This document shows, one piece after another, positions 13,861 through 50,670 of a stretch of DNA of 64,000 bases; position 1 is the stretch's first letter, and the number at the start of each line of letters is the position of its first letter. The notes below the pieces were generated by a model that was not told the DNA's origin, made no database searches, and saw only the letters and a list, made by a program, of their open reading frames with translations. Source of the stretch: Odoribacter sp. (lineage in GTDB: Bacteria; Bacteroidota; Bacteroidia; Bacteroidales; Prolixibacteraceae); contig PNOH01000009.1 in assembly GCA_013824715.1 (NCBI GenBank), positions 1 through 64,000 of the forward strand, in the 5' to 3' direction. The position numbers were made by a program, and so were the translations under genes.

Positions 13861-15012
13861 CTAAATCTTCCATTTCGTATCTAAAGCAGAAAGTCCAATC
13901 CCCGGTTGATCAATCAAAGTCACCTTTCCTTTAACGACCTGAACCCCCTGATACGGATCGTTTGAAATCAACAAATTACCGTCCAGATCGGCCCACTCGC
14001 ATTTGGGCGATAACTGGGCTGCAGCCGAAATTGCGCACGAAGTTTCGGTCATACAACCAATCATCACTTTCATATCCAGTGATTTGGCCAGCGTAAGCAT
14101 TTGATGGGCTTCACGCATGCCGGTACATTTCATCAGTTTGATGTTGATGCCATTGTACACACCTTTGGCTTTCATTACATCGGGCAGGCGTTGTACAGAT
14201 TCATCACCTATGGTTGGCAGTGGGCTATGTTCGGTAAGCCAGGCCATCTCATCAATGGAAGTTTTAGGCATCGGCTGCTCAACGAAAACCACGCCCTTTT
14301 CCTTCAACCAGTGAATCATGTCGAGCGCCATTTGTTTGTCTGTCCAGCCCTGATTGACGTCAACACAAAGGGGTTTATCAGAAACAGAACGAATGGTTTC
14401 GATCATTTCGCGATCGGTTTTTTGACCAAGTTTTACCTTTAGTACCTGATAAGGAACAGCTTCGGCCACTTTCTGCCTGACTACATCCGGAGTATCAATA
14501 CCGATGGTGAACGAAGTATTGGGCGTATCTGCCGGATTGAAACCCCATATTTTGTACCAGGGTTGCCCCATTAACTTACCAACCAAATCGTGTAAGGCAA
14601 TATCAACCGAAGCTTTTGCAGCACAGTTTCCGGGCATAACCGAATCAACATACTGAAGGATATCATCCATTTGAAACGGGTCATTAAACTGACTTAAATT
14701 CAACGACGACAGAAATTTCGACGCTGACTCAATGCTTTCCCCTAAATAAGGAGGCATCGAAGCTTCACCGTAACCTGTAACTCCTTCAAATTCCAGGCTA
14801 ATTAATACATCCGGTGTCGTTTTGCGTGAACTGTTGGCCAGGGTAAAAGTATGTCTCAGTTGGAGTTCGTAGGGAATAAAACGTAAAATCAATCCTTTTC
14901 CTGAAGTTTTACCTGATTTCTTTTTGGAAGCTGCAAACAAGGTTTCAATTCCAGTCATTCCAGCCAGGGCTGTCAATCCGGTAGTCCGTAAAAAATTGCG
15001 ACGTGAATTCAT
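13861..15012 (-). CDS. L-Ala-D/L-Glu-type dipeptide epimerase, Tat-exported
   Basis: An enolase-superfamily enzyme of about 383 residues, expected to epimerise L-Ala-D-Glu from peptidoglycan to L-Ala-L-Glu. The ATG at 15012 gives a twin-arginine signal (MNSRRNFLRTTGLTALAG), so it should be exported folded. Active-site signatures of the muconate-lactonising/dipeptide epimerase group are all present: LKVKLG (KxK general base), DVNQGW and EQPMP and GDES (the three metal ligands), NIKLMK (KxxK second base), and a C-terminal IGCMTETS loop. It is the last gene of an apparent minus-strand run (20998 to 13861), just after the NlpC/P60 endopeptidase, which would supply its dipeptide. Dipeptide specificity is inferred from family and context. 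Confidence 0.85.
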   Translation of the reverse strand: MNSRRNFLRTTGLTALAGMTGIETLFAASKKKSGKTSGKGLILRFIPYELQLRHTFTLANSSRKTTPDVLISLEFEGVTGYGEASMPPYLGESIESASKFLSSLNLSQFNDPFQMDDILQYVDSVMPGNCAAKASVDIALHDLVGKLMGQPWYKIWGFNPADTPNTSFTIGIDTPDVVRQKVAEAVPYQVLKVKLGQKTDREMIETIRSVSDKPLCVDVNQGWTDKQMALDMIHWLKEKGVVFVEQPMPKTSIDEMAWLTEHSPLPTIGDESVQRLPDVMKAKGVYNGINIKLMKCTGMREAHQMLTLAKSLDMKVMIGCMTETSCAISAAAQLSPKCEWADLDGNLLISNDPYQGVQVVKGKVTLIDQPGIGLSALDTKWKI

Positions 15013-15023
15013 AAATATGAGAT

Positions 15024-15165
15024 TAACAGCCCCTCCCAAACCCTCCCCACAAGGGAGGGCTTAAAAATGCTGCGATTATTTTTATTTCATTAAAAATACA
15101 TTCTTATTCAACGTGACCCTTTAAGCCCCCTCCTACGGACGGAGGGGGTTTGGGGGAGGCTGTTA
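15024..15165. repeat. Long inverted repeat of GC-rich intergenic element
   Basis: Arms at about 15024-15065 and 15120-15165 are near-complementary over about 42-46 bp (left arm AACAGCCCCTCCCAAACCC, right arm GGGTTTGGGGGAGGCTGTT), enclosing a short AT-rich spacer. The right arm overlaps the end of the NlpC/P60 gene and encodes its last ~16 residues. Related G/C tracts recur at 34.75, 54.98 and 57.72 kb. A strong hairpin would form in mRNA and could attenuate expression of the epimerase gene. Confidence 0.6.
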
Positions 15166-16340
15166 TACCATGGATGATCCTTTACCAGCATAATTCCTTC
15201 TGTGTTCAATGAGTTCAAAATCCGGCCAGAGGCCACTAATTTTTTCTTCAAAGTCTCATTATATACCGGATCATTCGGATCGAGACTGTTTATACGTACC
15301 AACCCGGAAGAATGGATAAATTTACCATTTCCCATGTACAAACCTACATGCGTAACCCGCTGGGCATTGCGCCCAAAGAACAATAAATCACCGGGCTGAA
15401 GCGCTTCCATGTTATTAAAATCGGGATGTTCACCGTACCTGGCTTGCTGCGATGCATCACGGGCCAGAATAATACCCTGCGAATAATAGGAATTTTTGGT
15501 AAAGCCGGAACAATCAACTCCTTTTGTTGAAGTTCCACCCCACAAATAGGGAGTTCCCAACATTTGCCGGGCTATTGAAATCATGGCCTGAACATCCGGT
15601 TTTCGGGTCGTCCATTCCAGCCACGATATACATTCCGATTTTCGTACAAATCCGGTTCTTCCATCGGGCAATCTGATTTTCAGGAATCCTTTTACTTCAG
15701 ATTGCTTTTCAAACAAATCACCTAAAACCAGGTCGGTAACAGCCATGCCTTTTCGGTTTGGCGAATCCATAGCTTTTCCGCTGATACGATTATACACAAA
15801 ACGATCCGATTTCTTCCAGCGATCCATCTCATCTGAAGTCAAACTTACCAGCCCGTTTCCTTCCATCCAGCCCAAATACTGGTCAGGAGTTTGAACATGG
15901 TACCAGCCATTCAAAGATTCAAGTACTTTAAGCGGTGTTCCCATCAACGCCTGAGAAACCATTTCCGCCGGATGATCGGGCTGTGAGCGCAGGTTAATAA
16001 CCGAAAGGGTTACCAATCCCCAGGTTTTTTCTCCCAAAGAAACAACTGGAAATACCTTTATTGAATCGGCAAAATGAATTCCCTGGTTTTTCAGGAGTTC
16101 TAAAACTGCACTTTCCCCTTCCGGAAGATTGGTTTCTCCCCTCACAGTAACCGGTGATTTCAGGGTATCGGCAATCGAAACATCGAGAATAGCCACCCGC
16201 TTATCAGGCACCAATTGTTTTTGAAGCGTTTGGATGGCGACGTTGAGGGCTTTAAAATTTGAATGCTGAGCGCTGACTATCATTCCGAAGAATAAAACCA
16301 GCACAAAATTCAGTAAAAATTTTAAAATTGAATTTTTCAT
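15108..16340 (-). CDS. NlpC/P60 family endopeptidase with SH3 domains
   Basis: A secreted cysteine peptidase of about 410 residues, starting at the ATG at 16340 with a signal peptide ending in VSAQ. Bacterial SH3-like modules (about residues 110-270) precede an NlpC/P60 domain: catalytic Cys in GVDCSGFTKN, His in THVGLYMG, and a third polar position near HSSGLVR. This arrangement matches the YkfC-type gamma-D-glutamyl-L-diamino acid endopeptidases that cut stem peptides to L-Ala-D-Glu. The adjacent dipeptide epimerase supports this specificity. The last ~16 residues (SLPQTPSVRRRGLKGSR) are encoded by an intergenic repeat arm and are probably not part of the ancestral protein, which would end around HPWYN. 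Confidence 0.88.
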   Translation of the reverse strand: MKNSILKFLLNFVLVLFFGMIVSAQHSNFKALNVAIQTLQKQLVPDKRVAILDVSIADTLKSPVTVRGETNLPEGESAVLELLKNQGIHFADSIKVFPVVSLGEKTWGLVTLSVINLRSQPDHPAEMVSQALMGTPLKVLESLNGWYHVQTPDQYLGWMEGNGLVSLTSDEMDRWKKSDRFVYNRISGKAMDSPNRKGMAVTDLVLGDLFEKQSEVKGFLKIRLPDGRTGFVRKSECISWLEWTTRKPDVQAMISIARQMLGTPYLWGGTSTKGVDCSGFTKNSYYSQGIILARDASQQARYGEHPDFNNMEALQPGDLLFFGRNAQRVTHVGLYMGNGKFIHSSGLVRINSLDPNDPVYNETLKKKLVASGRILNSLNTEGIMLVKDHPWYNSLPQTPSVRRRGLKGSR

Positions 16341-16362
16341 TTTTTCTATTTTGCGGTGCAAT

Positions 16363-17832
16363 TTATTTTTTAATCGTAAAAACAGGTGATCGGACAGATT
16401 CAACATTGTCCGAATTTACTGCCGTCACAAAATAACTCTTTCCTGCCAATCCTACAAATTGAAGATCGGAACTTATTTGAATGGCATTGGCATTGAAGGT
16501 TTTAAAATTAACCTTATCCCTTTCAAGCAAATAAACGGCATATTTTACTGCTCCGGCAGTTACTTTCCAGCTCAAAACAGGCCCATTCAGCGCTACTTCC
16601 GGCATTCCAACTGCTGGGACAATTAACCTTCCCATGACCGGAAGCAGCGATTTATACTCATATTTACCTTTCAGAAAAGAATAAAGTTCATTATTTTCCA
16701 AATACTTCATCCTGAAGTAAAAACATCCACACAAGTTGGCACTTTGGCGTACAGTTTCAATCTGACGGCCGATTTCACCAACGGTACCATAAGCCGGATA
16801 AGCGGGATCCTGAAATTTATAAGCGGCAATGCCAATAACCATCGGAATTCCACGCGCATTGCTGTTCCAGAAAGCCGCTTGTTTGCCATAGTCGGCGGTT
16901 GCATGACCAAACTCCCAGTAAACCTGTGGCGCCAGATAATCAACCCATTTATTGTCGAGCCAAACAAACGGATCGGCATATAAATCAATGCTGTTTTCGC
17001 GTCGGCCTGAAGGCGAAATCCCGAACAAAACACCCGGTTTATTTGCTTTGATCACCTGACTGACTTCAGCAACCATCAAGTTGACATTATCGGCCCGCCA
17101 GGTATGGACATCTTTTCCGTTTCCATATTTTTCAAAGGCTGCCTTATCGTCGAATCCAAATGGAGTACTGGTTGACTTTGCGCCTGAAGGATAAAAGTAA
17201 TCATCGAAATGAATGGCATCCACATCATAGCGGGTAATGATATCTTTCACAACTGCCATAAGGTGAGCTCTTACTTCAGGCAAACCGGGATTAAAATACC
17301 GAACGCCATTGTATGTTACCACCCAGGAAGGATTTTTTACCGCAACATGGCTGGAGGCAAGTATTGCCGAAGTACTTCCAATCCGGTAAGGATTTAGCCA
17401 GGCATGAAATTCCATACCTCGCTTGTGGGACTCGTCAATCGCGAACTTCATCGGATCGTATCCGGGATCCTGCCCCTGAACGCCAGTCAGGTACACCGAC
17501 CATGGTTCAAGATCAGAAGGATAAAAAGCATCGGCAACCGGACGGACCTGCAAAATAACGGCATTAAAATTCAGGTTCTGGCAACGGGTCAGTTGCGAGG
17601 CAAGCTCCACCTTTTGTGTTGAGGCATCGCCTTTGGTAATTGGCCAGTCGTAATTGCCAACCGTAGCAATCCATGCAGCCCTGATTTCCTTTTTATCGGG
17701 TTTGATCTGGTCGGTTAAAGCGTCATAAGGCCGATCTGTTTCAACAACCTCATCCGGAATTATCTCGTCTTTGCGACATGACCATGCGACAAGGACGAGA
17801 AGAAGAATAATGGATATTTTTTTTAATTTCAT
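16363..17832 (-). CDS. GHL10 family (PF02638) glycosyl hydrolase-like lipoprotein
   Basis: A lipoprotein of about 489 residues with lipobox VAWSC; the ATG at 17832 is chosen because it starts the signal peptide. The catalytic barrel belongs to the GHL10/YngK-type family, recognised from IRAAWIATVGNYDWP, VILQVRPVADAFYPS, FHAWLNPYRI, HFDDYFYP and the GISPSGRREN loop. A C-terminal fibronectin-III-like module (last ~90 residues) follows. Members have been proposed to act on bacterial glycans; substrate is not established here. A homologue with the same architecture is encoded at 43.0-44.5 kb. The gene ends 22 bp before the NlpC/P60 start, suggesting cotranscription. Confidence 0.85.
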   Translation of the reverse strand: MKLKKISIILLLVLVAWSCRKDEIIPDEVVETDRPYDALTDQIKPDKKEIRAAWIATVGNYDWPITKGDASTQKVELASQLTRCQNLNFNAVILQVRPVADAFYPSDLEPWSVYLTGVQGQDPGYDPMKFAIDESHKRGMEFHAWLNPYRIGSTSAILASSHVAVKNPSWVVTYNGVRYFNPGLPEVRAHLMAVVKDIITRYDVDAIHFDDYFYPSGAKSTSTPFGFDDKAAFEKYGNGKDVHTWRADNVNLMVAEVSQVIKANKPGVLFGISPSGRRENSIDLYADPFVWLDNKWVDYLAPQVYWEFGHATADYGKQAAFWNSNARGIPMVIGIAAYKFQDPAYPAYGTVGEIGRQIETVRQSANLCGCFYFRMKYLENNELYSFLKGKYEYKSLLPVMGRLIVPAVGMPEVALNGPVLSWKVTAGAVKYAVYLLERDKVNFKTFNANAIQISSDLQFVGLAGKSYFVTAVNSDNVESVRSPVFTIKK

Positions 17833-17848
17833 GTGCTTACTTTTCATG

Positions 17849-17911
17849 AACCACATAGGCACATAGGTCACATAGAAAAATTAACTATGTGTTCCATGTG
17901 TCTATGTGGTT
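17849..17911. repeat. Long imperfect hairpin repeat
   Basis: Arms 17849-17875 (AACCACATAGGCACATAGG...) and 17885-17911 (...CATGTGTCTATGTGGTT) are inverted complements with about five mismatches over 27 bp. It sits between the phosphoesterase and GHL10 genes within an apparent operon. A degenerate relative (CACTAAGTGTTTCTATGTG) lies near 57570. This CACATAG/CACTAAG type of repeat is commonly seen between genes in Bacteroidota. Confidence 0.5.
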
Positions 17912-17915
17912 GTTT

Positions 17916-19754
17916 CTAATATTCAAGGCAAACCACTTTTCCATCGAACGAGGTAACCAGAACCTGATTTTTACCGATCGGGGTGATGGCATTGATCAAC
18001 GCATTCGAAAGCTTGTATCTCCACACCATCTGATGAAACTGTTTGCTAATTGCCACGATTAACCCATTGCAGGTAGGAACAAAAACCAAATCTCCGTTTT
18101 CCGCTATTGGCGATGGCCCGATTTCGTAACCCAAATCTGCCTGACAGTCCCAAACCAGTTTTTGTTCTTTTGAGCCGGTTTCGAAAGCCAGCACGTGTCC
18201 CTCTTCCATATTTTTGATGTAAACCAATTTACCATCGCCGGATATGCCAATTGATTCGCGACAGGAATACTTTCCTGAATCCCAGATTTCCGCCCCGGTT
18301 TTTGCATCCAGTGCGGTCATCCGGCGGTCGGGAGCAACGATAAATATCTTTCCGTTTGCAGCTACAGGCCAAACTGCTGCCGGAGAAAGCATCCTGTTGG
18401 CGTATTTTTCGCGTTTCCAGATAAGTCTCCCTGTTTGTTGGTCGAGCGCATAAAAAGCATTGCCCCACGAACCAAAATAAACCTTTCCGGCGTACACCAA
18501 AGGCTTCGATTCCACAAAGTTTTTCACGCCATCAAATTGCCAGACCAGCTTTCCGGTCAACAGATCAATTGCTCTGAATATTCCTTCGGAAGACCCGACA
18601 TACACGGTTTTCCGGTCAATTACCGGCGAAGCAACAATCGGTTTATTCGTTTTAAACTTCCATTCAGGCTTACCTATTTTCAGGTTCAGGCAGTAAATAT
18701 TCTTGTCGGTTGAAGCGCAAACCACCCTGTTTTCGCCGATCGCCGGAGTGGAGTATATTTTTCCTGAAGTCTGAAATCGCCAGCATGTTTTTCCGGAGGT
18801 TTTATTCAGGGCAACAATTTCGCCTTTGGTGTTGGCATAAACAGCTTTTTTTCCTGAAGAGGTAATTCCGGTTCCGATATCACTCTTTTCCTGAAATTGC
18901 CACTTTACTTTCACCTGAGGATATTTTGAATTGACAGAAAAATCGGGACGAGGCCATATAATGGTGTCATTTTTAAAAAATCTTTTTCCAAGCGGCACTT
19001 TACACCAGACAGGATTTGTTTTTGCACCAGGCGTGCGTTCGGCATAAAATAAGGTATCGGCAGTAACAGTAGCAAAGTTGTACCCGCCAATTTCATTTTT
19101 TGCCCGCAGGTTCGAACGGCCCATCACTCCCGGAATTCCTTCAAAATTAAACAGTTTATTGCTGTGCCCGTGACCGAGTAAACTAACCTGAATGTTCCTG
19201 GTTTTAAGCAAATCAATTACTTCGTACCAATTCGAAAGAGATTCGTCCAGAGGATAATGGTTGACAAAAATGATGGGTTGCTCAGGATTTTTTATATGTC
19301 CAAGAATGGAATCCAAAAACACCATTTGCTCGCGGGGAACCAACCCCGGAGCCATGCGCATGTTGGGGCCGCTGGCGGTTCCGATAAATAAATACCCGTT
19401 CTTTTCAAAAGAGAACCCTTCGGCCCCAAATATCCTGACAAAGCTGTTGTTCCCGCTTTCCGACCATTTTGAATCATGGTTTCCGGGCAGAACGTAAAAA
19501 GGCTTGTTGAGCTTGCTGATTATCTCCTTTGCTTCCAGTAATTCCTGATCGCATCCAAATTCGGTAATATCACCTGATAGGATCACAAAATCTATATCGG
19601 CCTGACGGTTAATATCATCAACTGTACGGATCAGGTCGTCCGTTGCTGTCGAACCGCCAATATGAGTATCGGTAACATGTGCAAAACGGAAGGATTGTGC
19701 CGAAACAAGTCCGATTTGCAATATAATGAATACAAGTAGAGTTGAAATTCGCAT
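17916..19754 (-). CDS. Exported calcineurin-like phosphoesterase fused to a PQQ-type beta-propeller
   Basis: A 612-residue exported protein (signal peptide residues 1-19, ending VSAQ). The N-terminal metallophosphoesterase domain has its full set of metal-binding motifs: DTHIGG, SGDITE, GNHDSKW, VNHYPL and GHGHSN. From about residue 290 on, repeated segments such as YANTKGEIVALNKTSGKTCW and YCLNLKIGKPEW mark a PQQ-like/WD40-like beta-propeller of about seven blades. The propeller lacks an obvious enzyme signature and may bind a ligand or surface. The gene sits 14 bp after the amidase gene in the minus-strand run with NlpC/P60 and epimerase, so a role in cell-wall fragment dephosphorylation or sensing is possible but unproven. 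Confidence 0.85.
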   Translation of the reverse strand: MRISTLLVFIILQIGLVSAQSFRFAHVTDTHIGGSTATDDLIRTVDDINRQADIDFVILSGDITEFGCDQELLEAKEIISKLNKPFYVLPGNHDSKWSESGNNSFVRIFGAEGFSFEKNGYLFIGTASGPNMRMAPGLVPREQMVFLDSILGHIKNPEQPIIFVNHYPLDESLSNWYEVIDLLKTRNIQVSLLGHGHSNKLFNFEGIPGVMGRSNLRAKNEIGGYNFATVTADTLFYAERTPGAKTNPVWCKVPLGKRFFKNDTIIWPRPDFSVNSKYPQVKVKWQFQEKSDIGTGITSSGKKAVYANTKGEIVALNKTSGKTCWRFQTSGKIYSTPAIGENRVVCASTDKNIYCLNLKIGKPEWKFKTNKPIVASPVIDRKTVYVGSSEGIFRAIDLLTGKLVWQFDGVKNFVESKPLVYAGKVYFGSWGNAFYALDQQTGRLIWKREKYANRMLSPAAVWPVAANGKIFIVAPDRRMTALDAKTGAEIWDSGKYSCRESIGISGDGKLVYIKNMEEGHVLAFETGSKEQKLVWDCQADLGYEIGPSPIAENGDLVFVPTCNGLIVAISKQFHQMVWRYKLSNALINAITPIGKNQVLVTSFDGKVVCLEY

Positions 19755-19768
19755 TGCTTAAATTTATC

Positions 19769-20998
19769 TTATCTGGCCTTTCTGAGCCAGTCGTTAATCC
19801 CTCTCCGAATTTGTTTGGCAACCTTCGACTGAAAATTTTGATCCATGATCAGCTTTTCATCTGCTTCATTGCTTAAAAAGGCTACCTCAACCAGGCAGTT
19901 CGGATATTCAGTCGGGCCATTCAGCGAAAAATTAAAACTACCAATGTTTCCGAAGTTATTCAATTCCAAATCCAGCAACCTGTCTAAAACAGTTAATGAA
20001 AGCGGCCTGAATCCGATGTACCGGTAATACGTACTTACCCCTTTTACGTTCGGATTTGAAGCCGCGTTGTTATGGATGCTGATCAAAAGATCAGGATTTG
20101 CTTCTCGAAGCAACAAAGAGCGATCAATCATACTAAGATCAATATCCTCATTCCTGGTCATAAATACTTCAGCCCCCTTGCGTATCAATTGTTTTTCCAA
20201 TTTTTTGGCAATCTGAAGATTCAACTCCTTCTCTTTAATTCCACTTCCAACACCGGTAGCGCCTGAGTTTGTTCCGCCATGTCCGGCATCAACTGCAATT
20301 TTCAAATGACTGATTGAAAGATGCTCCGGCTGACGTTTAACGGCAACAACCAGGGCCTTTTTTTTGTATGTGATCGAATAGCCCCAATGTTGTGCATGCT
20401 TCAGCTCGATCGTCACCCGAAAAAGATTATCTTCAACCTGCTCATAATACACATTTTTAATCTCTTTGGCCGATTTGAGCTGGGTAATCCAATTCGTATT
20501 TCCGGTTGCCCCATAGATATCGACCACAATCCGTGAAGGATTATTCATCTGAATACTTTGATAGGGAAGCCGCTCGTCGAGACCGATGGTAACATAGTCG
20601 TACTTTTCGTCCCCGTAAACACTCCACGATGAAGTGAGATAATAATCGGGCCTCCTGAAATTACTCAACAGCTTCATATTCTCTTTCGGAATAAAAGCCT
20701 GATGATTGGGCGCAAGACGAACGATATAGTCGTCCCTGAGGCTGTCAACAACCTGCAAAACAATAGCCGTATCGAGATAAGTCATTTTGGCCCCGCCGAG
20801 CCGGTCAGTTCCGGGGCCAAACTTCAGGAAAGGCATTTGCCCCTGAGTTTTTCCGGCAAGGACCTTTTCTTTCTTTTGAATCGAAATGCTGTCGTTTTGT
20901 GCAAACGAACCGGTAAAACAAGCTATTCCAACAACAAGGGCTACCGCTTTTAGAATTCCTTTTTGTCTGAACAGACACTTGGTTTTTTGTGAACTCAT
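19769..20998 (-). CDS. N-acetylmuramoyl-L-alanine amidase (Amidase_3)
   Basis: A 409-residue exported zinc amidase that would cleave the MurNAc-L-Ala bond. The signal peptide ends GSFAQ, followed by an AMIN-like beta domain (about residues 110-215) and a C-terminal Amidase_3 domain. Zinc ligands are visible as His in DAGHGGTNSG, Glu in KEKELNLQIA and His in SIHNNAA; the catalytic Glu is in LVEVAFLSNEAD. It is the first gene of the run 20998-13861 and is separated from the upstream SusCD operon by a strong hairpin (21032-21063), so it probably has its own promoter. It could be a housekeeping amidase (AmiC-like) or part of the muropeptide scavenging system. Confidence 0.92.
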   Translation of the reverse strand: MSSQKTKCLFRQKGILKAVALVVGIACFTGSFAQNDSISIQKKEKVLAGKTQGQMPFLKFGPGTDRLGGAKMTYLDTAIVLQVVDSLRDDYIVRLAPNHQAFIPKENMKLLSNFRRPDYYLTSSWSVYGDEKYDYVTIGLDERLPYQSIQMNNPSRIVVDIYGATGNTNWITQLKSAKEIKNVYYEQVEDNLFRVTIELKHAQHWGYSITYKKKALVVAVKRQPEHLSISHLKIAVDAGHGGTNSGATGVGSGIKEKELNLQIAKKLEKQLIRKGAEVFMTRNEDIDLSMIDRSLLLREANPDLLISIHNNAASNPNVKGVSTYYRYIGFRPLSLTVLDRLLDLELNNFGNIGSFNFSLNGPTEYPNCLVEVAFLSNEADEKLIMDQNFQSKVAKQIRRGINDWLRKAR

Positions 20999-21031
20999 TG
21001 CATAAAATTACGAAGTAAGAATTTACCAAAT

Positions 21032-21063
21032 ATAAAGGCTATCAATAGTTTGATAGCCTTTAT
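21032..21063 (-). terminator. Perfect 14-bp hairpin ending the SusCD operon
   Basis: ATAAAGGCTATCAA (21032-21045) and its exact complement (21050-21063) flank a 4-base loop, in the gap between the DUF4251 gene and the amidase gene. It lies 24 bp beyond the DUF4251 stop codon, which suits a transcription terminator for the four-gene susC-susD-DUF4397-DUF4251 operon on the minus strand. Confidence 0.7.
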
Positions 21064-21086
21064 CTGATTAATTACCAATAGAAGGA

Positions 21087-21593
21087 TTAAACTTCGCCTG
21101 GCCTTTTGAAATATTTCGATTCAGCCCGTGGAATAACTTCCCCTGAAAAACGTTTTGCGTCCCCTTTGGTTGGGGAAACAATGATATCAGCATAATTGCC
21201 ACCATTTTTCATTGAAATTTCAACCTTTGCACTTACGAAAGAGCCTTTACACTGCATTTCAATTTTAATGTTACCTTTTTTGTCAGCAACCTGCTTGTAA
21301 TCAGACACTGTTACTTTGTTTGTATAACCATTACCAGCGGGGAAACCTTGTAAGATAACGAAGTCCTTTTCGTAAGAGATAAAATTTGCAATATCAGTAT
21401 TTGTCTGAATGGTTCTATCACTTGCTTCATAGGTGTCAACTATGATAACAAAATCTTTTGCTTCAATTGCTGCAACAGCTTTTTCTAATTGGGCCTTTGC
21501 TACTGCTTCTTTCTCTGCTTTTTTATTCTGAGCAAATGAAATTGTTGAAGTGATACAAACTAATCCAACAAGTATGAATAATTTCCTCATCAC
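21087..21593 (-). CDS. DUF4251 domain exported protein
   Basis: A 168-residue secreted protein with a signal peptide (residues 1-21, ending ISFAQ). The rest resembles DUF4251, a Bacteroidota-restricted beta-rich domain: AIEAKDFVI at the N-terminal side and the glycine-containing segment ISMKNGGNYADIIVSP near the C-terminus. Function is unknown. It begins 3 bp after the DUF4397 gene ends, making it the last gene of the susCD operon, so it probably acts in the periplasm with that uptake system. The start could be either of two adjacent ATG codons (21593 or 21590). Confidence 0.7.
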   Translation of the reverse strand: MMRKLFILVGLVCITSTISFAQNKKAEKEAVAKAQLEKAVAAIEAKDFVIIVDTYEASDRTIQTNTDIANFISYEKDFVILQGFPAGNGYTNKVTVSDYKQVADKKGNIKIEMQCKGSFVSAKVEISMKNGGNYADIIVSPTKGDAKRFSGEVIPRAESKYFKRPGEV

Positions 21594-21596
21594 TAT

Positions 21597-22442: not shown

Positions 22443-22468
22443 TATCAGTCGTTTTAAAATTAATGTTA

Positions 22469-24265: not shown

Positions 24266-24277
24266 TTCTGTGATAAA

Positions 24278-34479: not shown

Positions 34480-34640
34480 GATAATAAATTTATCGGGCTG
34501 AAAGCCCATTATATCTTAGCCTAATAACCAGCATATCTGCCTTGCCATGAAAAATTCTGATAATGGATTCCTTTTGTTTTAATCCATCTGCTACTGTTTT
34601 TCTTAATGTCTTCTAAAAGGTCTGACATGTCTCTAAATAT

Positions 34641-36235: not shown

Positions 36236-36241
36236 TTTCAA

Positions 36242-43002: not shown

Positions 43003-44529
43003 CTACTTCTTCCCTTCTCCAAAAATCACCGGTTCGCTTTCCTGATGCGTAGAACTGATGGCTGTTACCGCGTAATTAAACTTCGATGGCCTGGTATTTT
43101 TATTCTTTCTGATAACCAACAATGTTTCGTCGGAAACTTTTAAAATATTCTCAGGATTTCCGATGTCCAATTTTGACTTTTTGCTGATTTTATAGATCAC
43201 GAACATACGACTGTTACCCGCATTTTCCCAGTTTAATTTTATCGCTTTCCTCTTTTTGTGTATCTGTGCATTGACTGGCGCTACTGGTTGAATCGGTGCA
43301 ACCCGTGGATTTGGAGGAGACAGTGCCGGATACTTATACATTTCTTTCAGGAGGTTTTCTTTTACCCCTAACGGATTGTTCTTCATGAATTTGGCGCTGA
43401 AAAACATACTCCCGGCAATATTCGGATAGCTGCGGTTCAGCCTGATTTGTTTGGTCAGTTCATCGGAAGTTTGCCAGGCCACATCCCGCGATTTTTCATT
43501 AATCAGGTATGGCGCCTGACCAATATACAACTGGCAACCATACGTATTTTTGCTCCACCAGTCGGCCAGAATAGCGTAATCGGCAACCGTTTTTCCGATG
43601 AACCAGTACAATTGTGGGGTAACGTAATCAATCCAGCCTTCTTTTTGCCACAACAAAATGTCGGCATACAAATCATCATAATTGGTTACTCCGGCTTTGG
43701 TAGCAGATCCAGCCGGGTCAGTCGAGTTATTCTTCCAAACCCCAAAAGGCGAAATTCCAAATTCAACACTTTGCCTGATTGATTTAATGCTGTCGTGCAA
43801 TTGTTTAATGATCAAATCCACATTATTCCGGCGCCAGTCGTCTTTTTTGTCCGGCGCAAATCCATTCGGCCAGGAGGCAAATGAGTTCTGATCAGGAAAT
43901 TCCTGATTGGCCACACGGTACGGATAGAAATAATCGTCGAAATGAATGGCATCAATGTCGTATCTCCTAACAATATCGCTCACCACCCGGGCCACATGGT
44001 CGCGTACTTCCTGGATTCCGGGGTCAAAATACTTTTTGCCTCCGTAACTTAACATCCACTCCGGATGGGTATTGGCCACATGCCCCGGCGCCGGAACCGA
44101 TTTTTCAATGTTTTGAACAGCCCGGTACGGATTCAGCCAAACATGAATATCCAACCCCCGCTTACGGCATTCTGAAATAGCAAAGGCCAGAGGATCGTAA
44201 TACGGATCAGGTGCAACTCCCTGCGTCCCCGAAAGCCATTCAGACCAGGGTTCCAACTTCGAATCATACAACGCATCAGCATCAGGTCGAATCTGAAATA
44301 CAATTGTATTCATATTATATGCCTTCACCTGATTTAGCATTTCGATCATTTCAAGTTTCTGCTGTTCGGTCGTCAATCCTTTCGCCGATGGCCAGTCAAT
44401 GTTTTCAACCGTGGCAATCCAAATGGCCCGCATTTCGTGTTTGGGATAGGTTTGGGAATAGGTTGAAGAGGCAATTCCAATGAGTATGAATACCGTTATA
44501 ATGAATTGAATTAATAGGATTCGGTTCAT
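43003..44529 (-). CDS. GHL10 family (PF02638) glycosyl hydrolase-like protein, second copy
   Basis: An exported protein of about 508 residues, starting at the ATG at 44529 with a signal peptide ending STYSQ (an open extension to 44643 is not signal-like). It has the same hydrolase barrel as the copy at 16.4-17.8 kb: MRAIWIATVENIDWPSAKG, IVFQIRPDADALYDS, HVWLNPYRAV, HFDDYFYPYR and FGISPFGVWKN. A C-terminal FN3-like module follows (WENAGNSRMFVIYKI...). Here the anchor is a cleavable signal, not a lipobox, so the two copies may act in different places (periplasm against membrane-attached). Substrate unproven. Confidence 0.85.
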   Translation of the reverse strand: MNRILLIQFIITVFILIGIASSTYSQTYPKHEMRAIWIATVENIDWPSAKGLTTEQQKLEMIEMLNQVKAYNMNTIVFQIRPDADALYDSKLEPWSEWLSGTQGVAPDPYYDPLAFAISECRKRGLDIHVWLNPYRAVQNIEKSVPAPGHVANTHPEWMLSYGGKKYFDPGIQEVRDHVARVVSDIVRRYDIDAIHFDDYFYPYRVANQEFPDQNSFASWPNGFAPDKKDDWRRNNVDLIIKQLHDSIKSIRQSVEFGISPFGVWKNNSTDPAGSATKAGVTNYDDLYADILLWQKEGWIDYVTPQLYWFIGKTVADYAILADWWSKNTYGCQLYIGQAPYLINEKSRDVAWQTSDELTKQIRLNRSYPNIAGSMFFSAKFMKNNPLGVKENLLKEMYKYPALSPPNPRVAPIQPVAPVNAQIHKKRKAIKLNWENAGNSRMFVIYKISKKSKLDIGNPENILKVSDETLLVIRKNKNTRPSKFNYAVTAISSTHQESEPVIFGEGKK

Positions 44530-44575
44530 GAAATTATATGGTTTTATTTTCAACATTTGAAATAATTTATTTTGC

Positions 44576-44714
44576 CATGTCCGTTCGCTAAAGTCCCAAG
44601 TACTCGGGACAAAGGATACTGCTTCGATCAAGATTTTTTTCAATTTCGTTTTTTTATGTCCTTACAAACAACTTGCAACGCCTGACTTGGAATTTGGAAC
44701 CTGAAATTTGGAAC
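44576..44714. repeat. Intergenic repeats between transglutaminase and GHL10 genes
   Basis: GTCCGTTCGCTAAAGTCCCAA (44580 on) with a nearby CAAAGGATACTGCTTCG unit matches elements at 36.35 and 39.80 kb. A second unit alternates GGAATTTGGAACCT and GAAATTTGGAACTT (44690-44714). No coding potential noticed. Confidence 0.5.
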
Positions 44715-46196
44715 TTATTGATATTCCACTTCCATGTGCCAATCCCACTTATCGAAATAGAGATTTCCTCGCTCCCATTCCAATTCACCGCGCTGAAAAT
44801 CGTAAGGTTCGCTGCGTATGTATTTTTTATCAGGAGTTAATTTACGAGCATAATCATCGTTCACAATCAGACGATAAGCATCAATTCCTGAACGGTAAAA
44901 ATTTCGGACCTTTTCACCGGCATCATTCTGCAAACCAAACGACTGATCAACAGGAACCCAGCCCACAGCTTCGAAATACACTTCGCACCAATCGTGCAGA
45001 TTAACCTCCCCTGGATGAAGCATCCAACCACTTTGCCATTTCACCGGAATCCCCTGCGATCGTGCCAAAGTCATGAACAACAAAGTTTGCATGCCACAAT
45101 CGCCGTGGTGATTTTTCAGAACATATTCCGGAATATTCGGAATTGTTCCATACTCCAAAGCGCTTGCCCAGCGAATTGAACCGTTGATCCAGTTATAAAT
45201 TTTCTGAGTTTGCAGCAAAGGGTTGGTTTCGCCATCCAAAATAAGGTTGGCCAATTGTTTAATTTCATCTGTAAAAACAATCTGAGGAGGGCGCTCCGCT
45301 GTAAATTCCTTGTAAACAGCGCTCGATGTATCGTAAGGCTTCAGGTGTTCAGGTTTTAAATCGAAATATTGAGCTGCAGTTTCAAATTCAAATTCAATGT
45401 TAAAAACGGTTGGCCGATCTTTTTCGGCCTTCTTTTCAAGGTAAATTGTCCGTTGCAAATCACTTGCAGGAGCAACTGATGCCTGTTCCGGATTCGATTT
45501 TAAAAGCCGGATATCCTTCTGCCGGGAGTGTCCTTCCCTCGGGAAAGGCATCCAGCAGCGGATTGTTTTCCCATTTGGAATAACATTGGGTTTTACCGTA
45601 ATGGTGTAATTAAGCTTCATTCGGACAGGCAAAACAGGCCCGCCTATCGTTTTAGTCAGTTCAGTTACTTTTCGGGTGTGATTGATACAGAATATATCGA
45701 GCGAATCAACGTGCAACCCATCAACCTTAGTTTTACAGATTTTCGCCTCATCATCAAGCAGGAATAAATTACTTACAGCCATATTGAAATAACGCTTTTC
45801 ACCATCAATAAGGCGCATTTCAAGTTTTCTGTTTCTCTCCCAACGGTGCATCATTCCCGAATCCAAATAAGGAAAATAATTGTTAAGCCGTGTAATTACA
45901 TCAGCTTCTTTCAGGCTAAAATCAATCGGTATGCGCCGGGCAATTTCAACAATTGAATCCAGTTTAAACAAATTTATTTCGCCCAAAATCCGGGTTTCTT
46001 TAATAGAATCGGCCAGCAATCCCGCCTTTTTCAGTTCGCCGGAATGCACCAGTTTCTCAATTCCCGAAAAATCAAACGGCTTTTCGGGAGTTGCTTTGCA
46101 GGCACCCAAAAGAAAAAGTAATGTGCCTGTTTTCAGCAAACTATTTGCCCAATTTCCAAATTGGTATGACCAATATTTTTGATTCAATCTTATCAT
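44715..46196 (-). CDS. Transglutaminase-like cysteine protease lipoprotein
   Basis: A 493-residue probable lipoprotein: an N-terminal hydrophobic stretch ends in LLGAC (Cys33). The C-terminal half is a transglutaminase-core domain: catalytic Cys in NHHGDCGMQTLLF, His in LHDWCEVYFE and the Asp in GWVPVDQSF. The N-terminal part (about residues 40-250) is a beta-rich domain seen with such proteins in Bacteroidota. Bacterial members are usually proteases or peptidases. Placed between GHL10 and GH9-deacetylase genes it may cleave peptide cross-bridges in wall fragments, but substrate is unknown. Confidence 0.82.
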   Translation of the reverse strand: MIRLNQKYWSYQFGNWANSLLKTGTLLFLLGACKATPEKPFDFSGIEKLVHSGELKKAGLLADSIKETRILGEINLFKLDSIVEIARRIPIDFSLKEADVITRLNNYFPYLDSGMMHRWERNRKLEMRLIDGEKRYFNMAVSNLFLLDDEAKICKTKVDGLHVDSLDIFCINHTRKVTELTKTIGGPVLPVRMKLNYTITVKPNVIPNGKTIRCWMPFPREGHSRQKDIRLLKSNPEQASVAPASDLQRTIYLEKKAEKDRPTVFNIEFEFETAAQYFDLKPEHLKPYDTSSAVYKEFTAERPPQIVFTDEIKQLANLILDGETNPLLQTQKIYNWINGSIRWASALEYGTIPNIPEYVLKNHHGDCGMQTLLFMTLARSQGIPVKWQSGWMLHPGEVNLHDWCEVYFEAVGWVPVDQSFGLQNDAGEKVRNFYRSGIDAYRLIVNDDYARKLTPDKKYIRSEPYDFQRGELEWERGNLYFDKWDWHMEVEYQ

Positions 46197-46276
46197 GAAA
46201 TAGATTCTGAATTGAATTAATACACTAAAAATTTGTTATTCGCTTCGAGCTATAAGCAACAAAACAGAAATTAACA

Positions 46277-48736
46277 CTAGAATCGTTCCGTTTTGTAGCC
46301 TCTTTGCTTCAGGTATTTCAATAAATCATCCAATCGGCCGTAAAACTTATCGGTCCGTTCGGGAGCTGTTCCCAAATGAATCAACATGATACACCCATTT
46401 AAACCATTCGGATCTTTCTTTTCAAAATTTTTGATGTCATTCATAATTGTTTCCGACGAACGGTAGCCGGGCATATCCGGCGTGGTATAGTCGGCATTAG
46501 AACGAATTCCGGGTGTAAAGTTGACGACTTTCAATCCAATTTGCCTGCTCCAGTCAACGCTTTCGGTATTGTACCACTCGTATGGTGGCAAAAATACCTT
46601 CGCTTTTTCAGGCGTAATTCCAAAAGCGCCCATTTTTTTGAAGTTGGCTTTCAAGTCTTCGGATAATTGATGCTGACTAACCAATGTCGAATCGCGTTTA
46701 CTCCAGTCGGCATACAGCAAATGCCTGTCGGAATGTGCGCCCAAATAATGGCCATCTGTAATCAAGTCGTTAATAAGTTTACTATTTTCCGGATTACTAT
46801 AAAAAGTTCCGGTAAAGAAAAATGAAGATTTGACCTTGTTCTTTTTCAGTGTTTGAGCAATCACTTTGCCACCTTCAGCATATTCGTGAGCCGAAAAAAT
46901 GAGGTAAATTTTCTTGTCTTTCTGGTTCATTCGGACTACTGCACCTTGACTATCACACTGATCCTGATTATTTTCCTGATCAGCTTCAAGTGAAGAAAGC
47001 AAATAACTTAAGCTGGCTGTTCCATCCATCGTGGGTTCGTTGGTCGAATAATCGCCCATATCGTCATGATATACCGCTTTTCCATTCTGAAATTCAGCAT
47101 ATTCATCAGCATCGTGCAAACTTATTCCGAGCAGGCTATTATAAATATGCGAGTAAACCGGACCATCAACCAGTCCGCCTGTTGTAGTTTTTTTCAGGAT
47201 GTAAGTAAGCGACGAATGGGGAATTTCAGGATAATCGCCACCAGCCGGAAGTCCGCAAATCATGGATGTTCCCCACGGATTGCAACCGAATAACCAGTCA
47301 GTCAAGGCAGCTTCCATTAGTTCGTAACTCGCGTCGCCAGTTATTTTCCGGTACAATTTGGCCTGGGTTGCAGCAGCAACTACCAGATTATTAGAGCACC
47401 ATATAAATGGCACTCCGATACGAAAAGGATCGTTTCCCGCATATTTTTTCAACTGATCGAGGCCCTGTTTCATCAAACCGGAAAACTGTTTTGCTATTGC
47501 CGGATCGTTGGACTGAGCCATTAAAACATGACCCAGGTTCACAAACGGATAATACTGGTAATGACGTGCGCGGTTCAGTTCCATCCAGGGAGTTACCGGT
47601 TCCAGTTCGCCCCAGTATTTGGCCTGCTTCTGAAAATCGGTCGTTTTATCCAGAGGAATAAGGGTGGCAGCCGCCAGTTCCATATCGTCAACGTAATTAT
47701 CTTCCTCGTAAAAATACGGTGAAGCGATACAGGCAGTCTGGCAATTACCCAAATCTGATTTGGCAAAATCCCAGGCATCGTACGACTTATGAAGCATCTG
47801 ACCGGCAAAAGCGGGATCAATCTGTTTGAAAACGGAAGCTCCCAATGCAAACGATGAAGCAAATTTTGCTGCGATAGATGAAACGCCGGTCGTGCGGTTT
47901 TTATATTTGCCAAGTCCCTGCGATTTTCCTGATACAAAGTAAACCGGCCGGTATTTTCCAAGTCCGTAACTGCCTATAGTGTCGTTCGTTGGCAATCGCA
48001 AACCAATGTGATCGCGGTCGTCGGCAATCTGGTTATACATTTCATTTTTAGCCGGATTCATCCGCATCAGCCATTCAAGTCCCCAGCGCGCTTCGTCCAG
48101 AATATCGGGAATACCATTTATCCCAGGCCTTCCGTTTGCATCGAACCGGTCGCTATAAACTGTTGGATTTTGCTGATAAGCAAACAACAACTGATAAATG
48201 GCATTCGCCGAAGTGGTCGTATATTGTAAATAATCTGATGCATCGTGCCATCCACCAATAGCATTGATTTTTTCGCCGGTACGGGATGGATGTTCAACTA
48301 TAATTCCATCATGGGTATGGCAGGAATCATTCAGGAAAGGATTAAACCCGCATCGTTGCTGGCGCATATAATTCAGGATGAAATCGGCTGTGCCCTGATA
48401 AACGTCGGGTGATATGCGAAACGAAGGAGAGACGCATTTACCGATCTGGAGATAAAATCCACCGATTTGTTCAACCGACGAAAAATTCAACCTTAAAGCA
48501 ATTTTTTGCCCCCAGACTGAAGCATCAGCAGGTTCTGTTTGCCCTTCCAAAATCAGTTTTCCGGAAAGTGTTTCGAATAATTGAAACGTGGAAACATTTT
48601 GCTCCCTGTCAGAAATAAACACGGCAACTTTCGATGAATGAGGCAAATAACCAAGCTGATTGATCCGGATAACTTCGTATGCTGAAACTTTAAAAGCAAC
48701 CAGAGAAATCAGGATAAACAACAAATTAATTTTCAT
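46277..48736 (-). CDS. GH9 glycoside hydrolase fused to NodB-type polysaccharide deacetylase
   Basis: An 819-residue exported fusion. After a signal peptide (residues 1-19) an Ig-like CelD_N domain (about 20-110) leads into a GH9 barrel (about 115-605) with GGWHDASDY (Asp165 and Asp168 as base) and a C-terminal NEPTMDGTAS carrying the general-acid Glu. Residues 608-819 form a CE4/NodB-like domain: HSDRH (His668/His672), LPPY, and LIHLG, but motif 1 reads FSAHE instead of TFDDG. GH9 members include exo-glucosaminidases, so a deacetylase plus glucosaminidase acting on GlcNAc-containing oligosaccharides fits the locus. It begins the long minus-strand array and is divergent from the kinase gene. 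Confidence 0.85.
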   Translation of the reverse strand: MKINLLFILISLVAFKVSAYEVIRINQLGYLPHSSKVAVFISDREQNVSTFQLFETLSGKLILEGQTEPADASVWGQKIALRLNFSSVEQIGGFYLQIGKCVSPSFRISPDVYQGTADFILNYMRQQRCGFNPFLNDSCHTHDGIIVEHPSRTGEKINAIGGWHDASDYLQYTTTSANAIYQLLFAYQQNPTVYSDRFDANGRPGINGIPDILDEARWGLEWLMRMNPAKNEMYNQIADDRDHIGLRLPTNDTIGSYGLGKYRPVYFVSGKSQGLGKYKNRTTGVSSIAAKFASSFALGASVFKQIDPAFAGQMLHKSYDAWDFAKSDLGNCQTACIASPYFYEEDNYVDDMELAAATLIPLDKTTDFQKQAKYWGELEPVTPWMELNRARHYQYYPFVNLGHVLMAQSNDPAIAKQFSGLMKQGLDQLKKYAGNDPFRIGVPFIWCSNNLVVAAATQAKLYRKITGDASYELMEAALTDWLFGCNPWGTSMICGLPAGGDYPEIPHSSLTYILKKTTTGGLVDGPVYSHIYNSLLGISLHDADEYAEFQNGKAVYHDDMGDYSTNEPTMDGTASLSYLLSSLEADQENNQDQCDSQGAVVRMNQKDKKIYLIFSAHEYAEGGKVIAQTLKKNKVKSSFFFTGTFYSNPENSKLINDLITDGHYLGAHSDRHLLYADWSKRDSTLVSQHQLSEDLKANFKKMGAFGITPEKAKVFLPPYEWYNTESVDWSRQIGLKVVNFTPGIRSNADYTTPDMPGYRSSETIMNDIKNFEKKDPNGLNGCIMLIHLGTAPERTDKFYGRLDDLLKYLKQRGYKTERF

Positions 48737-48900
48737 ATCAAGTCAGGTTTTGGGTTAGGGTTCAGATTAATTCCTTTAAAAAATTGCTTGCTATAAAGAT
48801 AGATATCTATATAATACCGACAGTTTTGTCAGACATCTTTTCTGTTTTACTTTTAATCCAATTCCGCATCAAAAATAGTCTATTAAATGAATTTACAAAT

Positions 48901-48930
48901 ATTGGTAATACATGTTATATGATACATTTA
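48901..48930 (+). promoter_or_regulatory. Candidate operator upstream of kinase/murQ operon
   Basis: ATTGGTAATACATGTTA (48901-48917) matches 16 of 17 bases with the motif upstream of susC (27520-27504, minus strand). A weaker second half-site, ACATTTAT, follows at 48924-48931. The motif ends 84 bp before the kinase ATG and reads toward it. It lies in the divergent region shared with the GH9-deacetylase gene, so it could affect both directions. Confidence 0.45.
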
Positions 48931-49001
48931 TTTTCTAATCTAAATCCTTATATTTACAACATTGAAATGAAAAATATGACCTGTCAAAATCATTATTCAA
49001 A

Positions 49002-49841
49002 ATGAAATTAATTGCTGATAGTGGTTCGACCAAAACAGCCTGGAAACTTATCAGTCGTTCAGGAACTATTAAAGATATAAAAACCTCAGGGATTAACCCA
49101 TTTTTTCGTACGGAAGATGACATTTTCCTGGAATTAAGAAAGTCTCTTTTGCCTGAAACCGGTATAGAGATCACAGAAATCTACTTTTACGGAACTGGTA
49201 TTATCAATGCTGAAAAAGGTGACATTATAAAAAGGGCCTTAAGTAGAATTTACCATCAGGCCGCCATCGAAACCTACAGCGATGTTCTTGGCGCTGCCAG
49301 GGCATTATTCGGGAATAAAGCCGGAATTGCCTGCATTTTAGGGACCGGATCGAATGTTTGCCTGTACGATGGCGAAAAAATTACCGAAGGAATTTCACCT
49401 CTTGGATTTATATTGGGCGATGAAGGCAGCGGCGCAGTGATGGGCCGAAAACTATTGGGCGACTATTTTAAAGAAGTGATGCCTCCCGATTTGCGCGATG
49501 ATTTTACTAAAAAGTATAACCTGGCCCGTGAAGAAGCTTTAAACAGCGTTTACCGAAGCGAAAAGCCCAATCAATTTTTGGCTCAGTTTACGCCATTTTT
49601 GTCGGAGCATGCAGGTTCGGTTTATTGTCAGGAATTTGTTCAACGAAATTTCATGGAATTCTTCGACCGGAATGTAAGCCACATTCCGGGCTACAAGAAT
49701 TATCCGATCGGATTTGTTGGTTCAGTAGCTTTTTATTTCAGCCAGATTTTAAATAATACAGCCAGTTATTTTGGATTCGATCAAACCATTATCATTAAAG
49801 ATCCGATTGAAGGACTGGAAAAATATTATAACAACTTATAA
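49002..49841 (+). CDS. murK: BadF/BadG/BcrA/BcrD-type kinase, probable N-acetylmuramate (or GlcNAc) kinase
   Basis: A 279-residue actin-fold kinase. The N-terminal phosphate-binding loop is ADSGSTKTAW (about residues 5-14), and the adenosine-side motif GTGSNVCLYDG and GDEGSGAVMG are typical of the BadF/BadG-GlcNAc kinase family. It would phosphorylate imported MurNAc at C6. It lies 4 bp upstream of murQ, as in Tannerella forsythia, where the homologous kinase (MurK) supplies MurNAc-6-phosphate in the absence of a PTS. The length is a little short of typical GlcNAc kinases but matches this group. The ATG at 49002 is the first in frame after the intergenic motif. Substrate preference between MurNAc and GlcNAc cannot be seen in the sequence. 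Confidence 0.82.
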   Translation: MKLIADSGSTKTAWKLISRSGTIKDIKTSGINPFFRTEDDIFLELRKSLLPETGIEITEIYFYGTGIINAEKGDIIKRALSRIYHQAAIETYSDVLGAARALFGNKAGIACILGTGSNVCLYDGEKITEGISPLGFILGDEGSGAVMGRKLLGDYFKEVMPPDLRDDFTKKYNLAREEALNSVYRSEKPNQFLAQFTPFLSEHAGSVYCQEFVQRNFMEFFDRNVSHIPGYKNYPIGFVGSVAFYFSQILNNTASYFGFDQTIIIKDPIEGLEKYYNNL

Positions 49842-49845
49842 CAGA

Positions 49846-50670
49846 ATGACAACAGAAAGTACAACCGAAGCCGATTCATTGTATCATGATCTGGAACAGA
49901 AATCGGTAAAAGAGCTTTTATTAAGCATTCACGAAGAAGATAAAAAAGTACTTCCGGCAATTCACGAGGCTATCCCCCAAATCGAAAAACTGGTAGAACA
50001 GGTTTACCTTCGCATGAAGAAAGGTGGTCGGCTATTCTACATGGGGGCCGGCACCAGTGGAAGACTTGGAATTCTTGATGCCTCTGAGATTCCACCAACT
50101 TTCGGTGTCGGTCACGATCTGGTCATCGGCCTGATTGCCGGCGGTGACCGTGCCATACGTAAAGCTGTTGAAATGGCTGAAGATGATGAAGAACAAGGCT
50201 GGAAAGACCTAGAAAAATACGAGGTAACCAAGTTAGACACAATTGTTGGAATAGCAGCATCAGGTAGAACTCCTTATGTAATTGGAGCAGTAAAAAAAGC
50301 CCGCTTAGGAGGCCTCCTGACAGGCTGTATCGTGAATAACAAGAACAGCGCTTTGGCACAAAATGTCGAAATTGCCATTGAAGCGGTTGTAGGTCCCGAA
50401 TTCCTTACAGGCAGCACCCGTATGAAATCGGGCACTTCGCAAAAGTTAATCCTGAATATGATCACCACTTCGCTGATGATTAAACTCGGAAGGGTAAAAG
50501 GCAACAAAATGGTGAACATGCAACTCACCAATCAAAAGCTTATTAACCGTGGAACCCGCATGATCCGAACAGAACTGGGCTACGATGAAGTAAAAGCCAA
50601 ACGGCTGCTATTGCTTCACGGGTCGGTAAATAATGTATTGCTGGCCGAAAAAGAAGAGAACAGGCAATAA
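49846..50670 (+). CDS. murQ: N-acetylmuramic acid 6-phosphate etherase
   Basis: A 274-residue cytoplasmic SIS-domain enzyme that cleaves the lactyl ether of MurNAc-6-phosphate to GlcNAc-6-phosphate and D-lactate. The ATG at 49846 is preferred, 4 bp after the kinase stop; the frame is open further upstream but only overlaps the kinase. Family signatures include GGRLFYMGAGTSGRLGILDA, EIPPTFGV, IGLIAGGDRAI, VGIAASGRTPYVIGA, the segment GPEFLTGSTRMKSGTSQK, and LHGSVNNVLL. Length and motif order match MurQ of E. coli and Bacillus. It commits the whole locus to MurNAc salvage. GlcNAc-6-phosphate would then enter NagA/NagB, which are not in the window. Confidence 0.97.
   Translation: MTTESTTEADSLYHDLEQKSVKELLLSIHEEDKKVLPAIHEAIPQIEKLVEQVYLRMKKGGRLFYMGAGTSGRLGILDASEIPPTFGVGHDLVIGLIAGGDRAIRKAVEMAEDDEEQGWKDLEKYEVTKLDTIVGIAASGRTPYVIGAVKKARLGGLLTGCIVNNKNSALAQNVEIAIEAVVGPEFLTGSTRMKSGTSQKLILNMITTSLMIKLGRVKGNKMVNMQLTNQKLINRGTRMIRTELGYDEVKAKRLLLLHGSVNNVLLAEKEENRQ

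Follow-up and report, generated by a model that had tools for sequence, protein, structure and literature searches.

The stretch from 13861 to 50670 in a 64,000-nucleotide window of Odoribacter sp. (contig PNOH01000009.1; the window is the whole stretch of DNA analysed, from a genome of 4.6 Mb in 85 contigs) encodes a peptidoglycan salvage set together with a SusC-SusD pair. We consider it probable that this is a salvage locus of the type found in Tannerella forsythia, extended outward by a module for the import and digestion of foreign peptidoglycan fragments. The salvage core is the known pathway of the T. forsythia type, and the joined SusC-SusD-lipoprotein module, with a URO-D protein and a GH9 hydrolase as recurrent partners, is the new part. 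Gene content, conserved linkage, the N-acetylmuramic acid (MurNAc) site residues of the kinase MurK and the predicted fold class of DUF4922 are what the analysis shows.

There are 23 genes in the locus. Between 48736 and 13861, twenty-one consecutive genes share the minus strand, and MurK and MurQ are encoded divergently on the plus strand; this agrees with the initial annotation, which was made from the sequence alone and placed almost all the genes on one strand. Unless stated otherwise, the genes described below are on the minus strand. Nearly all the labels in that annotation were upheld by Pfam and NCBIfam models, namely SusC, SusD, two NamZ, Amidase_3, NlpC/P60, an MR-MLE epimerase (AEE-like), two GHL10, GH9 with polysaccharide deacetylase, SSF, HGSNAT_cat/NagX, MurQ, URO-D, DUF4922, GT2, metallophosphatase-PQQ and DUF4251. 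The gene order recurs in congeners to the limits of their contigs, and parts of it recur in other families too; the cluster is therefore no chance assembly. A chance pile-up of genes is ruled out by the recurrence in congeners.

The MurK-like MurNAc kinase lies at 49002–49841 on the plus strand. Its Pfam match to BcrAD_BadFG is below the cut-off (30.2 bits against 31.5), and it was settled as MurK-like by a PDB search. The best match was the hypothetical protein 1zxo (2.4e-74), followed by 8oqw (2.2e-68; 283 residues) and 8ow9 (4.2e-68; ‘putative novel MurNAc kinase’), both of which we take to be T. forsythia MurK (TfMurK). D94, N118, S132-P133-L134 and D140 correspond, with an offset of one, to D95, N119, S133-P134-L135 and D141 of TfMurK, where the S-P-L patch has been tied to MurNAc specificity (PMC10465942). 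Among 43 aligned sequences, D94, N118 and L134 occur in all, D140 in 42, P133 in 41 and S132 in 35. The MurNAc-6-phosphate etherase MurQ is at 49846–50670, also on the plus strand (NF003915, 359.7 bits, cut-off 168; TIGR00274, 299.9, just under 302). Its start is probably the in-frame ATG at 49846 and not the listed TTG at 49771. Both NamZ genes of the genome (2 of 2) are in this locus. NamZ1 (27621–28844; PF07075 5.7e-76, PF20732 1.4e-36) and NamZ2 (29909–31141; PF07075 5.6e-87, PF20732 1.2e-35) are exo-N-acetylmuramidases of family GH171, with both domains over the cut-off.

A NagX/HGSNAT-family membrane protein (39965–41074; HGSNAT in the PDB, 2e-24) is found in the position of MurT, and NagX holds this place before MurK in related operons. 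Its His39 aligns with the acetyl-carrying His297 of HGSNAT and is kept in 23 of 23 sequences. For NagX, transmembrane acetylation of glucosamine has been proposed, and it is distantly related to TfMurT (PMC9007349); MurT has been placed in the sodium symporter superfamily (PMC5790795). Because the HGSNAT histidine is kept, yet the protein is distant kin of TfMurT, it may be either a transporter or an acetyltransferase. An SSS-family sodium/solute symporter is encoded at 41071–42516 (PF00474).

In T. forsythia, Tanf_08345–08385 form one transcript, encoding a xanthan lyase, two Gtf, LytB, AmpG, YbbC (NamZ), MurT, MurK and MurQ (PMC5388701, PMC7670621). This species depends on MurNAc, has a MurNAc kinase, and uses muropeptides via a functional AmpG (PMC5388701, PMC7670621, PMC5790795). 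The window locus resembles this operon in having a Golvesin_C/amidase-like/fn3 protein (here GolvAmi) at the position of the xanthan lyase, GT2 and DUF4922 at the positions of the two gtf genes, equivalents of YbbC, MurK and MurQ, and a candidate for MurT (PMC5388701); the likeness is judged by order and annotation, the solved MurK alone being compared by sequence. Thus a MurK with MurNAc-site residues, a MurQ, and NamZ, GT2, DUF4922 and GolvAmi together are all present, and in comparison with the T. forsythia operon the window locus adds SusCD, GHL10, the epimerase, NlpC/P60, GH9 and URO-D. GolvAmi (36580–39684) had been read as a second zinc amidase, a label that did not hold: Golvesin_C is strong (PF25275, 1.1e-27), and Amidase_3 is sub-threshold at 17.1 bits against a cut-off of 27.

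SpoIID (LytB) and AmpG, present in the Tannerella operon, are absent from the locus, and an adjacent pair lies elsewhere in the genome (G000, contig C36, 10886–13912); the two are mutual neighbours in most congeners searched. The initial annotation proposed a complete route from outer membrane to cytoplasm. This reading is partly supported: the salvage set with its SusC-SusD pair stands, but ‘complete’ is too strong, because the genes for AmpG and SpoIID lie outside this contig and the locus is without a known exo-GlcNAcase (an enzyme removing terminal N-acetylglucosamine, GlcNAc). The genome's matches to GH3 (4) and GH20 (5) are on other contigs, and these proteins might supply the GlcNAc-removing step.

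Four of five Bacteroides operons (L093, L114, L124, L132, L148) have the order NamZ1-SSS-GolvAmi-PQQ phosphatase-GT2-DUF4922-SpoIID-AmpG-NamZ2-FAD/Fe-S oxidase-NagX-MurK-MurQ, GolvAmi not being seen in L114. By best hit, about 21 kb of each contains no SusCD, URO-D, GHL10, NlpC or epimerase. Bacillus subtilis has a NamZ-NagZ-AmiE-MurP/MurQ cluster, with which the window locus shares the logic of NamZ, amidase and MurQ; it is without a phosphotransferase system or NagZ, and has the kinase MurK in their place.

The GT2 glycosyltransferase (34745–36241; PF00535) is a constant partner of DUF4922 (33487–34509; PF16269). The latter is predicted to be an Apa2/GalT-type nucleotidyltransferase, within a fold class of nucleotidyltransferases and phosphorylases: its model (predicted local distance difference test, pLDDT, 91.4) matches Apa2 in Foldseek (1.3e-9), and also ADP-glucose phosphorylase and GalT. 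The HIT/GalT superfamily is marked by an HxHxQ/Cys-Cys motif; C91, C94, H132, H170 and H172 are present in 30 of 30 sequences, and Q174 in 28 of 30. The protein is 69–74% identical to those of metagenome-assembled genomes titled Prolixibacteraceae (UBA6029) and Bacteroidetes bacterium (nzgw134), and the window's genome is accordingly placed in Prolixibacteraceae. Eighty named loci were gathered by DUF4922 alignment, of which 60 are at least 12 kb long and 57 were left after three congeners were set aside; DUF4922 is thus present by construction, and many stretches end short of 10 kb. GT2 was found in 55 of the 57, AmpG in 46, SpoIID in 45 and MurK or MurQ in 39, with GolvAmi in 23 of these 39 (many stretches being cut). 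Named loci from Bacteroides, Marinilabilia, Labilibaculum and elsewhere contain much of the core. The initial annotation listed GT2 and DUF4922 among extra members with no assigned role, whereas no other members recur as constantly in loci of this kind; because MurK or MurQ is close by in 39 of the 57 loci, they belong to the core, and the survey rules them out as unrelated extras. In L070 (8183–10663, plus strand) a single open frame of 826 residues contains GT2 (58% identity) and, after it, DUF4922 (33%). Such a natural fusion is evidence that the two act together.

MurK and MurQ are missing from the stretches of 18 of the 57 loci (L086, L088, L091, L103, L131, L143 and others), some of them cut. 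In several, including those of Ignavibacteria and Melioribacteraceae, GT2-DUF4922 sits amid unrelated genes; the two may therefore also serve functions other than the use of MurNAc.

The import module consists of three genes. SusC is a SusC/RagA TonB-dependent importer (24278–27409; TIGR04056, 622.8 bits), nearest in the PDB to BT_2264 (2.9e-93) and then RagA (2e-47). The SusD-like lipoprotein (22469–24265; PF12771, 3.1e-27) has 3fdh as the best of its 16 PDB matches. BT2264 and RagA carry peptide ligands; the window SusC is like these importers, and the window SusD resembles neither partner. In a SusE/F-like position there is a further lipoprotein (21597–22442). Its earlier label of DUF4397 was lost, as it matches 0 Pfam families at E 0.01; the model is all-beta (pLDDT 76.9), with Foldseek matches to PepT1 (1.4e-6) and the PepT1 extracellular domain (7.3e-6). 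Lipoprotein-like leaders were recognised by eye in this protein, SusD, the first GHL10 enzyme and a transglutaminase-like protein, and were missing in URO-D, DUF4922 and GT2. With an adjoining SusC-SusD pair and carbohydrate-active enzymes, the locus has the gene content of a polysaccharide utilisation locus.

A lack of conserved linkage between this pair and murQ or namZ would have told against the initial annotation; linkage to these or other core genes is present in most genomes with this SusD. Taking at least 48% identity over the matched range as orthology, SusD orthologues occur in 13 genomes including the window's own, G000 (3 of 295 in an order sample and 13 of 120 in a family sample, the window being counted in both); genes were assigned by best BLAST hit, by which paralogues may be confused. 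The cassette lies in a locus with core genes in 8 of the 13 (G000, G004, G010, G022, G615, G649, G668 and G670, the G010 contig breaking inside SusC). In G578 it is on the same 55-kb contig as the core, about 28 kb off. Linkage cannot be judged in three, G542 and G692 (contigs below 6 kb) and G698 (contig starting inside SusC, with GHL10 and amidase after it). Two divergent SusDs (32–34%; G009 and G015), left out of the count, likewise adjoin NamZ1. A homologue of the 21597–22442 lipoprotein adjoins SusD in 13 of 13 (27–36% identical in G578, G668 and G542). A secreted DUF4251 protein (21087–21593; PF14059) is often found with the cassette, adjoining it in G004, G022, G010, G615, G649, G670, G688, G692 and G698 and not seen beside it in G578, G542 and G668.

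Further genes of the locus encode an AEE-like dipeptide epimerase (13861–15039; PF13378/PF02746; possible twin-arginine translocation leader, TAT_signal being below cut-off), an SH3-NlpC/P60 endopeptidase (15108–16406; PF00877 7e-26, SH3), an AMIN plus Amidase_3 N-acetylmuramoyl-L-alanine amidase (19769–20998; PF01520 2.7e-40) and two GHL10 hydrolases (16363–17871, PF02638 1.5e-68, and 43003–44643, PF02638 6e-73). A secreted metallophosphatase with a PQQ/BamB beta-propeller (17916–19754; PF00149, PF13360) has a homologue between GolvAmi and GT2 in the Bacteroides operons. Two genes in the locus went unnamed in the initial annotation, a secreted PBP4B-like serine hydrolase of the beta-lactamase family (31574–33475; PF00144) and the transglutaminase-like lipoprotein (44715–46196; PF01841; lipobox LGAC). 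The last member of the minus-strand run is a GH9 hydrolase fused to a CE4-like deacetylase domain (46277–48736; PF00759, PF02927, PF01522). Its D165, D168 and E567, which we take to have the GH9 catalytic roles, are kept in 19 of 19 sequences. CE4 polysaccharide deacetylases carry a TFDDG motif with the base aspartate; this aspartate is missing in 19 of 19, with A or G in its place, which in the window protein is followed by H. The HSxxH metal pair is kept in all 19. The deacetylase domain thus appears degenerate, and the deacetylase label is weakened.

The GH9 and deacetylase domains, together with NagX, which acts in glucosamine use and is often found in chitin operons (PMC9007349), might suggest a locus directed at a different amino-sugar glycan, for example fragments of chitin or chitosan, with these as its main enzymes and the MurNAc genes as a side branch. 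We regard this as very improbable. A scan of 30 window proteins gave no match to a chitinase family at E 0.01, and the loss of the CE4 base aspartate in every homologue counts against a deacetylase. Two NamZ, MurK, MurQ, the amidase, NlpC/P60 and the epimerase all indicate peptidoglycan.

Between the two NamZ genes is a URO-D superfamily protein (28877–29908; PF01208), which keeps an HxCG stretch in common with methylcobalamin:coenzyme M methyltransferase. Of 120 genomes of the family, 20 have URO-D. In 15 of these it accompanies salvage genes, at a distance of about 15 kb in G688; in G671 it is unlinked, and G002, G015, G652 and G698 are not judgeable.

Several observations weigh against an outward-extended salvage locus. 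No regulator was recognised at the locus. The MurK match to 8oqk, labelled as a GlcNAc kinase, is only slightly weaker (1.8e-64). The NagX NCBIfam model scores 158.5 bits against a cut-off of 480 and the PBP4B model 158.7 against 385; the epimerase, clear in superfamily, is below the cut-offs for L-Ala-D/L-Glu epimerase (138 against 343) and DgcA (204.4 against 400). Only 22 of the 39 MurK/MurQ loci have NamZ within reach and only 17 have NagX, although many of the stretches are cut. GH9-deacetylase is near core salvage genes in 6 of 17 genomes, ambiguous in 2 and unlinked in 9 (the 17 being taken from 20 other matching genomes, some matched by one domain only). As to the ligand, 5fq6 and 6sli, the source entries of the BT2264 and RagA SusCs, are not among the 16 PDB matches of SusD, and BT2264 is weak evidence, being the best match for three of four SusCs tested: the window's, one from G012 and one from Paludibacter. 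The other G012 SusC is nearest to the SusC homologues 8aa4 and 5t3r. In ten congeners, hand-picked among those with NamZ matches from 22 listed, the SusCD slot holds the orthologue in two, another SusC in six and none in the stretch in two (G003 and G006, despite most of the core), the stretches of G004, G009, G011 and G019 ending at contig ends. Outside this count, G010 (orthologue) and G015 (other SusC) were examined for their SusD match. Outside the genus, SusC is within 10 kb of DUF4922 in 6 of the 39 MurK/MurQ loci, or 7 with a weaker match in L100, and is missing in the other 32 or 33. In G688 the cassette is unlinked, its whole 29-kb contig carrying the amidase and no core gene.

The variable slot, the scarcity of SusC outside the genus and the G688 contig would be expected if the core recycled the cell's own wall and the cassette were a neighbour, merely inserted here and importing something else. 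However, the same SusCD is in the locus in the 8 of 13 genomes noted above, from several genera, and what it adjoins differs: in the window's genus it is NamZ1, in G615 and G670 the epimerase, and in G649 and G668 the PQQ phosphatase. A passive neighbour is unlikely for this reason, and we regard this alternative as improbable; the amidase is kept next to the cassette in G688, G692 and G649. With linkage in most of the orthologue genomes but a variable slot in congeners, the SusCD importer is, as far as gene order tells, a module linked to the salvage locus but swappable. Clustering of 21 SusCs (20 hand-picked plus the window's, three clusters being preset and one fragment below 850 residues dropped) gave the window's group, a second with G011, G012, G013, G019 and G698, and a third of two.

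We hypothesise the following route for the extended salvage locus, in which we infer all substrates, locations and directions. The SusC-SusD-lipoprotein cassette would bring peptidoglycan fragments, probably peptide-bearing ones or loose peptides, across the outer membrane. In the periplasm the amidase would remove stem peptides, from which NlpC/P60 and the epimerase would produce usable dipeptides; the GHL10 enzymes would cleave the stripped glycan, and NamZ1 and NamZ2 would free MurNAc at chain ends. At the inner membrane the sugars would be handled by NagX/MurT and the SSS symporter. MurK would then phosphorylate MurNAc, and MurQ would convert the product to GlcNAc-6-phosphate and D-lactate; the latter may be oxidised by a FAD/Fe-S enzyme encoded close by. 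In the cytosol, the conserved pair GT2 and DUF4922 would act together, probably to form or break down a nucleotide sugar, and URO-D would carry out a step of its own tied to the pathway.

More tentatively, and as a doubtful extension, Prolixibacteraceae may have a modular scavenger, or predator-like, system. A fixed MurNAc core would be combined with interchangeable SusCD cassettes, one type BT2264-like and one nearer other SusC homologues, tuned to different wall fragments (peptide-bearing or bare glycan). Unrecognised enzymes (URO-D beside NamZ, GH9 with its degenerate deacetylase, GT2-DUF4922) would perform undescribed peptidoglycan-specific steps.

For Bacteroidota, salvage is known at the inner membrane and in the cytosol. 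The one T. forsythia paper searched for the outer-membrane step, PMC7670621, does not treat it: the words ‘SusD’ and ‘TonB’ do not occur, and ‘outer membrane’ appears a single time, in the title of a cited work; a search of titles and the beginnings of abstracts turned up none on SusCD in peptidoglycan salvage. A SusCD pair that stays with murK, murQ and namZ across genera is a direct importer candidate for this step, and its swapping suggests adaptation to differing wall sources. The recurrent partners URO-D, GT2-DUF4922 and GH9 are specific candidate enzymes without an assigned step.

A weak promoter-like TTTG-N-TAnnTTTG, which we take to be a Bacteroidota motif, lies upstream of the minus-strand run (48870–48899, minus strand); the window contains 5 matches against 3.9 expected, and 30 of 100 shuffles reach 5. 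No Rfam family reached its gathering threshold in the window.

Just outside the range first annotated, and unnamed there, is a flavin adenine dinucleotide (FAD)/iron-sulfur (Fe-S) protein resembling D-lactate and 2-hydroxyacid dehydrogenases (10077–12905; PF02913/PF01565/Fer4/CCG), whose best PDB matches are glycolate oxidase, LctD and D-lactate dehydrogenase. It is a candidate for oxidising the D-lactate that MurQ releases. A homologue (45–49%) lies between NamZ2 and NagX in the Bacteroides operons. The enzyme is near salvage genes in G010 and G031, in G010 next to the epimerase, and is not near them in G012, G008, G009 and G014. In G012, a congener with a single contig, some 385 kb separate it from the locus, and G003, G004, G006 and G009 carry the two on different contigs. 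Its standing as a fixed member of the locus is weakened, since it lies elsewhere in most congeners where it could be placed. Between it and the epimerase is a Bro-N domain gene (12908–13735), with an 88% identical counterpart in the same place in G010. A second gene of the beta-lactamase family lies at 8853–10049 on the plus strand; its residues 2–272 match positions 74–321 of the 329-position profile, and the gene may be truncated or its listed start may be too late.

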